Below are positions 16,018-64,000 of a stretch of 64,000 bases of DNA, one piece after another (the first letter of the stretch is position 1; each line of letters starts with the position of its first letter). The position numbers and the translations under genes were made by a program. The notes under the pieces are model-generated. The model ran no database searches and was not told the origin of the DNA. It was given only the letters and a program-made list of their open reading frames with translations. The stretch is from Pedobacter aquatilis (lineage in GTDB: Bacteria > Bacteroidota > Bacteroidia > Sphingobacteriales > Sphingobacteriaceae): NCBI RefSeq assembly GCF_030409415.1, contig NZ_JAUFPW010000012.1:558001-622000 (forward strand), written 5' to 3'.

Positions 16018-16240
16018 TTTGTTGAGTTGGAATGTTGTAAAGTTGGAATGTTGAAAAGTCGGTTATGCGTTGTTCGTTGACGGTTGCTCGTCTTTCGTTT
16101 CGATTGCCAAATTAAAATTTAACAATTAACTTTTGTTGAGTTTGGAATGTTGTAAAGTTGGATGTTCGTTAACCGTTGCTCGTCTTTCGTTTCAATTGCC
16201 AAATTAAAACTTAACAATTAACAATTAACAATTAACAATT
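16018..16240. repeat. tandem imperfect direct repeat plus TTAACAA heptamers
   Basis: Positions 16018-16130 and 16131-16222 are diverged copies of one unit: both contain TTTGTTGAGTT, GGAATGTTGTAAAGTTGG, GTTGCTCGTCTTTCGTTTC and a tail of AACAATTAAC. They are followed by about four TTAACAA heptamers (16212-16239). They fill the 300-base gap between dnaX and the AraC-type gene; no gene is seen there. Confidence 0.75.
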
Positions 16241-16303
16241 CAACAATTTTCAATCAACAATGAAACAATTTAGCAATTTTCCTTAAACGAAAAACGAAAA
16301 ACG

Positions 16304-33500: not shown

Positions 33501-34142
33501 TTAGGCATTTTTTAAAAAGATAGTTTCAATGGTTGTAGCTAAATCGCCGCATTTATCTGTTGTGTTTTCTAGTAAAGCCAACACTTCCGATTGCCTGATT
33601 AAAATTATGGCATCAAATTCACTTTCGAATAATATTGAAACAGATTGCTCATAAAGTCTATCGGCTTTGCTTTCTAATTGGCTTACATCCTTGCAGATAT
33701 CAATAATGGTTTGCTTGTTTTTGAAGTTTTTGATTTCAATAATAGCAAATTCAAGCATTGAGCACATTTTAAAAATAATCTCCGCAAATTTTACAATAGG
33801 CTCTTTAAAATCAACCAGTTGATAAAGTTCAATCTTTGTTAATATGGAAAGAATTTCATCAGCAATATCATCAATATTCGTAGCCAGTAAATGCACATCT
33901 TGCCTATCAAATGGAACAATAAAATTATTGTTAAGTTCTTCGTAAATGGTATCGGTTGCTTTATCTCCAAGCAGTTCCATATTTTTTATTTCTTTTGATA
34001 ATCTGCTTTTTTCAGATTGCTCTTTAGAACGCAAATAAAGTACAAGTGCTTCTGAAATATTGGTCAGATTTTTTGCCCCTGTTTCAAAAAGTGGCTGGAA
34101 GGTTCGGTCTTTCGGTATAAATAAGCTGAAAATCTGATTCAT
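33501..34142 (-). CDS. DUF47 family (PhoU-like) protein
   Basis: A 213-residue all-helical protein with the two-repeat PhoU-like pattern. Metal-binding carboxylate segments are seen as NFIVPFDRQDVHLLATNIDDIADEI in the first half and DVSQLESKADRLYEQSV in the second. DUF47 proteins usually accompany a low-affinity phosphate permease (Pit) and regulate it. Here no pit gene is next to it; instead a charged protein and an LEA-2 lipoprotein follow. It may act on a permease encoded elsewhere. Confidence 0.87.
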   Translation of the reverse strand: MNQIFSLFIPKDRTFQPLFETGAKNLTNISEALVLYLRSKEQSEKSRLSKEIKNMELLGDKATDTIYEELNNNFIVPFDRQDVHLLATNIDDIADEILSILTKIELYQLVDFKEPIVKFAEIIFKMCSMLEFAIIEIKNFKNKQTIIDICKDVSQLESKADRLYEQSVSILFESEFDAIILIRQSEVLALLENTTDKCGDLATTIETIFLKNA

Positions 34143-34222
34143 AAATAAAAATAAATTATAAGTAAATGTACCTTTGTTATGTTAACACAATGTTGCCAAA
34201 GCATTATATCCGTTAAAAACTT

Positions 34223-38020: not shown

Positions 38021-38092
38021 AAAACGATTTAATACCAGCTTAATATTCTGGTTACAATATTTAACTAGAATTGGATTTTACTATTTTTAAAT

Positions 38093-39022
38093 ATGAAATT
38101 CAATTCTGGTTTTTTTTATGCGTTTATTTTTCTCTTACCGTTTAATTTAAAGGCGCAGCAAAATATTAACGTGCTTAAAATTGATAATGCTAAGCAACTT
38201 CAGGCATTTTTTAAATATACTGGTAAAAATATTCCCATCATTAGCGGGCATCGCGGCGGAACGGTTAAAGGCTTCCCAGAAAATAGTATTGAAGCTTTTG
38301 AGCATACTTTAAGTTACACGCCCGCTTTTTTTGAGGTAGACCCGAGATTAACCAAAGACAGTGTTGTGGTTTTGATGCATGATGCAACCTTAAACAGAAC
38401 AACAAATGGTACCGGGAAGGTTGCAGATTACACTTATGCCGAATTGCAAAAGCTCAGGTTAAAAGATATTGATGGTAATGTTACGGATTTTAAAATTCCA
38501 ACCTTAAAAGAAGCCATAGATTGGAGCAAGGGTAAAACCATTTTAAACCTCGATAAAAAGGATGTACCTTTTGCCTTACAACAGAAAATAATGGCCGAGC
38601 ATCCAAATAAAGTAATAATGATTACTGTGCATGATGCTAAACATGCTAAATTTTACTTTGATAAAAATCCGGAAACTATGTTTTCTGCCTTCGTAAAAAC
38701 AAAGGCTGCCTTTGATGAATATGAAGCAGCAGGCATTCCCTGGAAAAATATGATTGCCTACATTGGTTCTGTGAATAAACCTGAAAACGCAGAATTATTT
38801 AAAATGCTTCACAGCAAAGGGGTAATGTGTATGATTTCTGCCGCCCCGAGCTTTGATAAGCTTGCAGACAAAAAGGATAGAGCCGAGCAATACAGAACAA
38901 CGTTTTTGCAGGGTGCAGATGTTCTTGAATCTGATTTGCCTGTTGAGGTTGGCGAAGCAATACAGTCAATTTTGCCTAAGGTTAATACGAAGAAAAATTT
39001 CTTTAGCACGCTAAAGCTTTAA
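38093..39022 (+). CDS. glycerophosphodiester phosphodiesterase family protein, exported
   Basis: A 309-residue enzyme with a signal peptide (ending near LKAQQ). The GDPD TIM-barrel starts with ISGHRGGTVKGFPENSIEAFEH, giving the HRG and PENS motifs, then FFEVDPRLTKDSVVVLMHDATLNRTTNG with the metal-binding Glu and Asp and the catalytic histidine. It would release glycerol 3-phosphate and an alcohol from glycerophosphodiesters in the periplasm, feeding phosphate and carbon supply. Single-gene context. Confidence 0.92.
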   Translation: MKFNSGFFYAFIFLLPFNLKAQQNINVLKIDNAKQLQAFFKYTGKNIPIISGHRGGTVKGFPENSIEAFEHTLSYTPAFFEVDPRLTKDSVVVLMHDATLNRTTNGTGKVADYTYAELQKLRLKDIDGNVTDFKIPTLKEAIDWSKGKTILNLDKKDVPFALQQKIMAEHPNKVIMITVHDAKHAKFYFDKNPETMFSAFVKTKAAFDEYEAAGIPWKNMIAYIGSVNKPENAELFKMLHSKGVMCMISAAPSFDKLADKKDRAEQYRTTFLQGADVLESDLPVEVGEAIQSILPKVNTKKNFFSTLKL

Positions 39023-46153: not shown

Positions 46154-46250
46154 GACTAAGAAATAAGGAGCAAAGATCAAAGAACAAGGAGTAAGAAACA
46201 AAGAGTAAAGATGAAAGAACAAGGAGTAAGGAACAAAGGAAAATACGCAA
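46154..46250. repeat. purine-rich short direct repeats
   Basis: The phrase AAAGAACAAGGAGTAAG occurs twice (near 46177 and 46213), within a tract of AAGA/AGGA words. It lies between convergent genes and looks like expanded low-complexity sequence. Confidence 0.55.
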
Positions 46251-46345
46251 AGAATTACGCGTAAGCCTTATCAGGCAATTAAGTCTTTATTCTTTGCGCA
46301 ATTATCTTTAATCTCTATTTATTTATCCTTAATCTTTTCTTCTTG

Positions 46346-62650: not shown

Positions 62651-63169
62651 ATGATGAGCAAGCAAACTAAAACCATTATTGAAAAGCGTCCTGTTGATGT
62701 TTATTTTGATAAGTATCAGGAAAGCCATAATAATCATACTAATGAAATTATTCACTGGATTTGTGTGCCGCTTATTATTTTCAGTTTGCTTGGCTTAGTG
62801 TGGTCTATTCCGTTTCCAAAAATTGGTTTTTTGGGTCAGTATAATATGTATTTAAACTGGGCTTCATTCTTAATTGCCTTTTCGGTTTATTACTATTATC
62901 GTTTATCGCCGGTGCTTTCATATTTTATGCTTTTGATAATTGCAGCCATGAGTTACGGTATTGTTGCTTTGGAACAATGGGAGAAAATTGGCGGACCGGC
63001 ATTATGGTTGGTTTGCCTGATTATTTTTGTAGTGGCATGGATTGGTCAATTCATCGGACATAAAATTGAAGGAAAGAAACCATCGTTTTTAGATGATGTT
63101 AAATTCCTGTTAATTGGTCCGATATGGTTATTGCACTTCATTTGCAAGAAAGTTGGTTTAAGGTATTAA
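62651..63169 (+). CDS. Mpo1-like (DUF962) membrane protein
   Basis: A 172-residue membrane protein. VDVYFDKYQESHNNHTNEIIHWICVPLIIFSLLGL at the N-terminus carries the histidines typical of the Mpo1/DUF962 family; three or four hydrophobic helices follow (about 30-50, 62-80, 85-103 and 113-133). The C-terminus has FIGHKIEGKKPSFLDDVKFLLIGPIW. Yeast Mpo1 is a 2-hydroxy fatty acid dioxygenase; the bacterial role is not proven. The open frame begins at 62582, but the ATG at 62651 starts the homologous part. Confidence 0.87.
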   Translation: MMSKQTKTIIEKRPVDVYFDKYQESHNNHTNEIIHWICVPLIIFSLLGLVWSIPFPKIGFLGQYNMYLNWASFLIAFSVYYYYRLSPVLSYFMLLIIAAMSYGIVALEQWEKIGGPALWLVCLIIFVVAWIGQFIGHKIEGKKPSFLDDVKFLLIGPIWLLHFICKKVGLRY

Positions 63170-63180
63170 TATTTTGGCGA

Positions 63181-63241
63181 TTAACACTGAGTTAACATTT
63201 AGCTAAACAAAGCTTAATTAACATCTAACATATAGCTAACA
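63181..63241 (+). promoter_or_regulatory. six 11-bp direct repeats (Pho-box-like operator)
   Basis: Hexamers at exactly 11-base steps: TTAACA (63181), TTAACA (63192), CTAAAC (63203), TTAATT (63214), CTAACA (63225) and CTAACA (63236). Repeats of this type with 11-base period are the hallmark of PhoB/PhoP binding sites in several phyla. A -7 box TAGCTTTG follows at 63251-63258, with no separate -33 word, as for activator-dependent promoters. Confidence 0.65.
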
Positions 63242-63250
63242 TTGTGGTAA

Positions 63251-63258
63251 TAGCTTTG
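63251..63258 (+). promoter_or_regulatory. -7 box of the terminal TonB receptor gene
   Basis: TAGCTTTG matches TAnnTTTG, ten bases after the last 11-bp repeat and 22 bases before the chosen start codon. Confidence 0.65.
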
Positions 63259-63280: not shown

Positions 63281-64000
63281 TTGAACTCAATCACAATTTT
63301 TAGAAAATCGGCGTTAACAATGCTGATTTTATTCATGGGCATAGTTTCTTATGCGCAAACCGGAAAAATAGCAGGTACAGTATCAGATAAGAAAACAGGT
63401 GAAACCATTATTGGTGCAACTGTTAGAATTAAAGGTACAAATAAAGGTGTTTCTACAGATGTAGATGGCAAGTATATTCTTCCTATCGCTGATGGAAAGC
63501 ATATTTTAGAGTTTTCTTTTATCGGATATCAGGGCAAAGAAGTTTCTGATGTTGAGGTAAAGGGCGGTGCAACGACCACTTTAAACGTAATCTTGAGCGA
63601 ATCTAGCAGTCAGAATTTAGGTGAGGTTGTTGTAAAAGCAAGTTTCAGACAAGAATCTGTTAACTCATTATACGCAAAACAGAAAAACAGTGCTGTTATT
63701 TCTGATGGTGTTTCGAGCGACCAGATTAAAAAATCTCCGGATAGAAATACTTCGGATGTTTTAAAAAGGGTTAGTGGTGCAACGGTTCAGGATAATAAAT
63801 TTGTTGTTATCAGAGGATTGAGCGACCGTTACAACAACGCAACATTAGATGGTTCATCATTACCAAGTACAGAGCCGAATCGTAAAGCTTTTAGCTTTGA
63901 TATTGTACCTTCAAATTTGGTAGATAACTTAATTATCAGCAAAACAGCTACACCAGATTTACCAGCAGATTTTACAGGTGGTGCAATCCAAATTTCAACT
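63281..64000 (+). CDS. TonB-dependent receptor with carboxypeptidase-like N-terminal domain (partial)
   Basis: The first 240 codons are present and the gene runs off the window. With the TTG start at 63281 the signal peptide is MNSITIFRKSALTMLILFMG followed by a cut near YAQ. The only ATG nearby (63320) would lack the positive N-terminal region, so TTG is chosen. A carboxypeptidase-regulatory-like beta-sandwich (GKIAGTVSDKKTGETIIGATVRIKG) is about 28-110; the plug follows with VVVKASFRQESVNSLYAKQ, VIRGLSDRYNNATLDG and TPDLPADFTGGAIQI. The Pho-box-like array upstream suggests phosphate control. Confidence 0.9.
   Translation, partial: MNSITIFRKSALTMLILFMGIVSYAQTGKIAGTVSDKKTGETIIGATVRIKGTNKGVSTDVDGKYILPIADGKHILEFSFIGYQGKEVSDVEVKGGATTTLNVILSESSSQNLGEVVVKASFRQESVNSLYAKQKNSAVISDGVSSDQIKKSPDRNTSDVLKRVSGATVQDNKFVVIRGLSDRYNNATLDGSSLPSTEPNRKAFSFDIVPSNLVDNLIISKTATPDLPADFTGGAIQIST

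Follow-up and report, generated by a model that had tools for sequence, protein, structure and literature searches.

Repeats in 11-nucleotide steps ahead of a TonB-dependent receptor gene of Pedobacter aquatilis are very probably the landing pad of a phosphate-starvation regulator

What does a run of short repeats, spaced at exactly one 11-nt step and ending at a promoter box, do ahead of an outer-membrane receptor gene? The question arises near the end of a 64-kb stretch of the Pedobacter aquatilis genome (hereafter the window; contig C4, 558001-622000, of our genome G000, 4.63 Mb in 36 contigs). Very probably these repeats are where a phosphate-starvation regulator binds the DNA, because similarly spaced repeats precede phosphate-uptake genes both in this genome and in relatives across the phylum. 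A sequence-only reading of the window had proposed an operator of the Pho-box type, and this proposal is supported, mostly by evidence that lies outside the window, namely arrays at phosphate genes and in relatives. With a probability of about 0.9, judged from sequence comparison, we take the array to be a multi-unit Pho box through which PhoB would activate the receptor gene and the lipoprotein gene behind it when phosphate is scarce. The features of the locus are as follows.

63181..63241, plus strand: operator of six 11-nt steps, TTAACA/TTAACA/CTAAAC/TTAATT/CTAACA/CTAACA, scored against simulation below
63181, 63192, 63203, 63214, 63225 and 63236, plus strand: unit starts of this receptor array
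63247..63252, plus strand: GTAATA, a weak seventh unit that overlaps the -7 box TAGCTTTG
63251..63258, plus strand: Bacteroidota -7 box TAGCTTTG; its first base lies 15 nt downstream of the first base of the sixth unit
63281..64000, plus strand: 5' part of the TonB-dependent receptor gene, with a TTG start according to the ORF caller; the ORF ends at G000:C4:624073
G000:C4:624175-625605: lipoprotein gene, next after the receptor and beyond the window, its signal judged by eye

The exact 11-nt spacing can be read directly from the sequence as six steps from 63181, as had been claimed. The count of six repeats is generous, as four units are exact YTAACA words whereas units 3 and 4 are degenerate and retain only the TAA core. 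The weak seventh unit gives the array a GTAATAGCTTTG-like ending that is also found in several Pedobacter relatives. A perfect -7 box lacking a -33 word, also part of the sequence-only reading, is indeed present, with TAGCTTTG at 63251-63258 and no TTG 17-23 nt upstream of it, the nearest TTG being at 63242-63244. Scored over six units, the array reaches 32.7, compared with a mean of 26.07 (sd 0.71) and a maximum of 28.40 in 150 first-order Markov simulations of 128 kb each at window composition. When spacings from 7 to 16 are scanned across the window, just one other six-unit score is comparable, 32.6 at spacing 7, most likely produced by a 7-nt tandem repeat of AATTAAC (about 10 copies, 16202-16278). 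Two-unit matches with at most two mismatches are about as frequent in the window as chance predicts (52 vs 47.7 expected), and therefore it is the length of the array, rather than the hexamer, that carries the evidence. The window also holds a 35-nt tandem repeat of 2.8 copies at 46157-46254. On the minus strand at 63086-63113, about 70 nt before the main array and within the coding sequence of the upstream gene, TTAACA occurs twice exactly and a third time in weak form, at 11-nt steps, perhaps by chance.

The receptor carries the Pfam domains CarbopepD_reg_2, Plug, TonB_dep_Rec_b-barrel and OMP_b-brl_3, and PF13715, PF07715 and PF14905 are among its matches in the Pfam scan. The expectation that a secreted phosphatase or phytase gene would follow the receptor was not borne out, since the next gene encodes a lipoprotein that matches nothing in Pfam or NCBIfam at E 0.001, and neither enzyme is evident in the ORFs further downstream in the surrounding locus (L031); here the Pfam scan covered the receptor and the lipoprotein, and the further ORFs were read by eye. 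A PDB sequence search with the lipoprotein profile found nothing. The structural model of a relative from Pedobacter psychrotolerans (L118; 81% identical to the lipoprotein, pLDDT 88.5) has many short strands, and its best Foldseek matches are parallel beta-helix proteins such as tailspikes and pectate lyases; only three of them pass E 0.001, and query TM-scores are at most 0.37 among the matches listed. On this model the lipoprotein is predicted to be a beta-helix. A second, diverged array lies between the receptor and lipoprotein genes, with units at L031:8076, 8087, 8098, 8109, 8120 and 8131, and TATTTTTG starts at L031:8146, at the same 15-nt distance from the start of its sixth unit as in the receptor array. 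The lipoprotein or a homologue occurs in 110 of 121 genomes of the family (E <=1e-10), and the best named matches of the lipoprotein search are from Pedobacter.

The arrangement extends well beyond this genome. From the lipoprotein alignment we took 80 named loci, the best 80 of at least 596, which span Pedobacter, Mucilaginibacter, Sphingobacterium, Chitinophaga, Hymenobacter, Flavobacterium, Bacteroidales and others; all counts in this paragraph refer to this set, and 69 of the 80 have a receptor match within 6 kb upstream of the lipoprotein. At spacing 11, 47 of the 66 usable receptor promoters reach the threshold (23/30 in Pedobacter, Mucilaginibacter and Sphingobacterium, 24/36 in the rest), while the nine other spacings between 7 and 16 give at most 6/66 overall, or at most 5/30 and 2/36 by group. 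The lipoprotein promoters of the relatives are weaker than the receptor promoters, with 13/31 and 12/45 at spacing 11 and at most 5 and 3 at other spacings. Control ORFs from the same loci reach the threshold at spacing 11 in 17/178 and 13/273 cases and at spacings 9, 10, 12 and 13 in at most 6 (n=178) and 3 (n=273), so there is a mild background of 11-nt arrays, part of which may come from flanking Pho genes. The position of the -7 box is similarly constrained. Once units overlapping the box had been left out, 48 of 51 receptor promoters place it in a common helical phase (4 mod 11); the count before this exclusion was 45/49, and it was repeated because the overlap of GTAATA with the box could inflate it. 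The strong arrays are in phase without exception (37/37), at 15, 26 and 37 nt in 22, 9 and 6 cases.

Within the P. aquatilis genome, the expectation that such arrays would precede other phosphate genes holds by gene context (a DUF47-PiT operon, a phoB-like gene and two SusCD-phosphoesterase operons, all with arrays in the register of the receptor array, and possibly a glycerophosphodiester phosphodiesterase (GDPD) gene), whereas degenerate matches show no genome-wide enrichment. A three-unit YTAACA pattern with at most three mismatches gave 81 matches genome-wide vs 73 for the reversed control, and for a three-unit TAAY pattern plus box the numbers were 25 vs 26 for the control; four TTAA cores with a -7 box at fixed distance gave 9 vs 3, one of the nine standing before the OmpR-family regulator gene at C3:4945. 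By our own reading of gene context, 7 of the 25 TAAY matches immediately precede a gene or operon concerned with phosphorus (receptor, lipoprotein, DUF47-PiT, a second DUF47, the GDPD gene and the two SusCD-phosphoesterase operons), and the other 18 adjoin no evident phosphate gene. Five TAAY matches have at most one mismatch, three of them on this phosphorus list, one ahead of the TolC-like gene of a CopR-type system and one at the end of a coding region. Degenerate patterns alone thus fail to separate signal from background, and for this reason we relied on gene context and on orthologues. The YTAACA search also returned a tandem repeat with TTAACAATGGGTAATGAATGGG on the minus strand (L036; G000:C3:60435-60495), which accounts for four overlapping matches. 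The DUF47-PiT operon (PF01865, PF01384) adjoins a gene for a PhoR/PnpS-like kinase on contig C5. The second DUF47 gene and the GDPD gene lie in the window itself.

34163..34196, minus strand: shorter array GCAACATTGTG/TTAACA ahead of DUF47, units starting at 34196 and 34185
33501..34142, minus strand: second DUF47 (PhoU_div) gene, PF01865 at E 1.8e-18
38029..38073, plus strand: weak array TTAATA/TTAATA/GTTACA, with -7-like TAGAATTG at 38066 (15 nt)
38093..39022, plus strand: GDPD gene, PF03009 at E 1.8e-21

The second DUF47 gene is likely to be a member of the Pho regulon. Its minus-strand array has a -7-like TACATTTA at 34170-34163 (15 nt), and ahead of the second DUF47 genes of five relatives (L284-L288) one or two such units can be seen by eye, at 15 or 16 nt from a -7-like box; no PiT gene was found among the neighbouring ORFs read. 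For the GDPD gene membership is possible: its first 70 residues are matched in 20 of 81 genomes, outside its own genome at 65% identity or less, and no clear array was seen by eye upstream of its paralogue at C4:710191. The two SusCD-phosphoesterase operons lie outside the window. One (L282; G000:C28:203305-212904) encodes SusC, SusD, a lipoprotein, a metallophosphoesterase, GDPD and a GDSL protein behind a three-unit array and looks like a phosphate-utilisation (Pus) locus; the other (L283; G000:C29:156499-164712) encodes an ECF sigma factor, FecR, SusC, SusD and a type I phosphodiesterase, has a three-unit array ahead of it in the -7 register, and may be another Pus-like locus.

The orthologous promoters of relatives were compared at spacings 8 to 14. 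Here as in the phylum-wide set, array weights and thresholds were chosen after the first arrays had been seen and differ slightly between scripts, and the counts come from related genomes and so from non-independent samples. Ahead of DUF47-PiT, 17 of 27 usable loci (of 30) reach the threshold at spacing 11, two do so at spacing 14, and none at 8, 9, 10, 12 or 13. The PhoB-like gene has such an array in 24 of 29 usable loci (again of 30) at spacing 11 and in none at other spacings. For pstS, where 15 loci were sorted by eye from the next gene, nine have an array at spacing 11 and none at other spacings; at PstS-like genes with other neighbours the count is 0/9 at every spacing. Among the six pstS loci below threshold, L096 and L101 keep two good units, and in L087, L088, L110 and L111 an array is not visible. 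In L094 and L100 the pstS array reads TTAACA-TTAACA-TTAACA-CTAACT, and the distance from the first base of its last unit to TACCTTTG is 15 nt.

If the array is read by a phosphate regulator, the genome should be able to supply one, and homology and synteny both indicate that a cognate PhoB/PhoR pair is probably encoded. The candidate regulator has an array of its own.

G000:C3:4945-5634: gene for a PhoB-like OmpR-family regulator, with the array TTAACA, TTAACT, TTAACT ahead and the box TACTTTCG

Of the eight OmpR-family regulators in the genome, this one scores best against two PhoB models, with 229 bits on TIGR02154 PhoB (runner-up 200) and 222 bits on the Bacteroides PhoB model (runner-up 178); neither it nor the C5 kinase reaches the curated cut-offs set for the PhoB and PhoR models. 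A ninth PF00486 match lacks a receiver domain, as judged by eye. No kinase gene lies beside the regulator in this genome. In four relatives, phoB-phoR is directly divergent from the receptor gene (Flavobacterium micromati, L188; Flavobacterium, L192; a Flavobacteriales MAG, L190; a Cruoricaptor MAG, L170), where the regulators share 55-61% identity with the C3 regulator, and the kinases behind them 46-52% with the C5 kinase across some 250 residues. These divergent pairs thus suggest that the separated C3 and C5 genes form one PhoB-PhoR system. A Chitinophagaceae MAG (L196) also has a regulator and a kinase (55% and 51%) beyond the lipoprotein, and in the flavobacterial Confluentibacter locus (L194) there is no phoBR beside the receptor-lipoprotein pair. 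At seven loci DUF47-PiT is found upstream of the receptor gene and on the other strand. In Taibaiella (L149, L150), Niabella (L159) and the same Chitinophagaceae MAG the two are directly divergent, some of the matches being fragmented; in three Chitinophaga loci (L147, L148, L153) about 1.9 kb separates them. No match to PhoU was found in the genome, which is 99.5% complete, and PF12849 has one match only, on C21; Pst is likely absent, and since PhoU has no match, PiT instead of Pst may serve phosphate uptake.

Several known systems resemble this arrangement in part. The PHO box consists of two 11-nt direct repeat units with seven well and four less conserved bases, along which the DNA-binding domains of the regulator are arranged head to tail (PMC4415409). 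The arrays described here are like the PHO box of Escherichia coli and Bacillus subtilis in their 11-nt direct repeats and in their place ahead of pst and other phosphate genes (PMC4415409). They differ in their unit, YTAACA(TT) and up to six copies instead of the CTGTCAT of E. coli (PMC4415409), and in being locked, where strong, to the -7 box TAnnTTTG at 15, 26 or 37 nt. The sequence-only reading had drawn its comparison from Bacillus PhoP; the PhoB proteins of Bacteroidota are nearer. In Riemerella anatipestifer, of the same phylum, the most conserved bases of the PhoP(R) DAP-seq motif are TTTAACA, likened there to the ArcA motif, and EMSAs with PhoP are reported for its own promoter and for a TonB-receptor promoter; that account, in the text available, describes no multi-unit array or fixed -7 distance (PMC9603813). 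Bacteroides fragilis PhoB binds the pst promoter, and the words 'consensus' and 'repeat' are absent from the available text of that paper (PMC3547664).

For the genes themselves, the closest counterpart is the PUSIV cluster of Flavobacterium johnsoniae, with Fjoh_0543 (PhoR), Fjoh_0544 (PhoB), Fjoh_0545 (receptor) and Fjoh_0546 (lipoprotein FII); on Pi depletion the fold-changes of Fjoh_0545 and Fjoh_0546 are 8.02 and 9.91 (log2; PMC8115612, Table 1). As in PUSIV, a receptor with PF07715, PF13715 and PF14905 is followed by a lipoprotein, which in PUSIV has the pectin-lyase fold (PMC8115612). The relatives of the pair in F. micromati (L188) and another Flavobacterium (L192), with phoBR divergent, share the Fjoh_0543-0546 layout, unlike the genome of the window, where the pair lies away from both phoB and phoR. 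A second counterpart is ElpS (Cc0170) of Caulobacter, the product of a phosphate-starvation lipoprotein gene that likewise stands beside a TonB-receptor gene, cc0171 (PMC2996285). The elpS and receptor genes co-occur, ElpS relatives are present in Bacteroides, overproduced ElpS raises supernatant phosphatase activity, the protein being presumed not to be a phosphatase, and cc0171 is said to be expressed in both media, with data not shown (PMC2996285). The similarity of ElpS to the FI-FIII lipoproteins is 31-36% (PMC8115612). Expression data for phosphate starvation in Bacteroidota exist (PMC8115612), and the main text of that study contains no occurrence of 'Pho box', 'promoter' or 'motif'. 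We found no Bacteroidota operator with an array and a fixed distance to the -7 box in the open-access literature, and the array-to-box geometry across the phylum seems undescribed so far.

The alternative that deserves most attention is that the array serves another OmpR-family response regulator, for metal, envelope stress or the like, and that its likeness to a Pho box merely reflects how this family binds DNA. The genome encodes eight such regulators, and a CopR-type efflux operon has an array of this kind: a perfect four-unit TTTAAT array with TAGTTTTG (L039; G000:C29:196659-196714, minus strand) lies in 11-nt steps and with a -7 box between a CopR/CopS-type pair and a TolC-like gene, and is probably the operator of that system. 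Together with the mildly raised frequency of spacing 11 ahead of ordinary ORFs, this suggests that an 11-nt spacing is probably shared by further regulators of the OmpR family, and 11-nt arrays by themselves are not phosphate-specific. The copper-type unit, however, differs in sequence (TTTAATTTCG), while the TTAACA unit and its register recur ahead of pstS, DUF47-PiT and phoB, and phoBR or PiT flank the homologous pair in other families. On balance we consider service to a different member of the family improbable.

Two further readings are less plausible still. A Pho operator could act on the receptor gene as a repressor or decoy site rather than as an activator site, and the array does abut the -7 box, where binding could block polymerase; against this, the lack of a -33 word means that the promoter probably needs an activator, and the F. 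johnsoniae counterpart pair rises on Pi depletion (PMC8115612), which makes repression very unlikely. That the repeats arose by chance, or from low complexity in an AT-rich intergenic gap, would fit the near-expected frequency of two-unit matches in the window, but the six-unit score exceeds anything simulated (32.7 vs 28.4), and the receptor promoters of relatives single out spacing 11 with the array locked to the -7 box. We reject a chance origin on these three grounds, and regard it as barely credible.

Returning to the array as a Pho box, the following sequence of events may be envisaged. When phosphate is scarce, the PhoR-like kinase encoded on C5 beside the DUF47-PiT operon would phosphorylate the PhoB-like regulator encoded on C3, which would then bind head to tail along the 11-nt direct repeats. 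PhoB at the nearest good repeat, in fixed helical phase 15, 26 or 37 nt upstream of the box and thus at the place expected for the -33 element, would replace the -33 word and recruit RNA polymerase; that PhoB substitutes for the -33 contact is suggested by the phase lock to the -7 box together with the missing -33 word. The extra upstream units could provide cooperativity and a graded response. The receptor gene would thus be switched on, and the lipoprotein gene through its own copy of the array, and both products would act at the outer membrane, probably as a system that scavenges phosphate or organic phosphate.

More broadly, the Bacteroidota may share one phosphate-starvation operator code, made of two to six head-to-tail 11-nt TTAACATTNNG-like units that are phase-locked to TAnnTTTG and replace the -33 element, with the receptor and an ElpS-like beta-helix lipoprotein as a core, phylum-wide member of the Pho regulon; we hold this general proposal to be slightly better than an even bet. 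The array offers a clean test case for how an activator acts on promoters that have a -7 box and no -33 element. As a phase-locked array can be read from sequence, it may allow phosphate-starvation genes, including receptor and SusCD systems, to be predicted in unstudied Bacteroidota. If the shared code is real, these bacteria would run TonB-powered phosphorus import alongside Pst or, as here, where no PhoU was found, instead of it.
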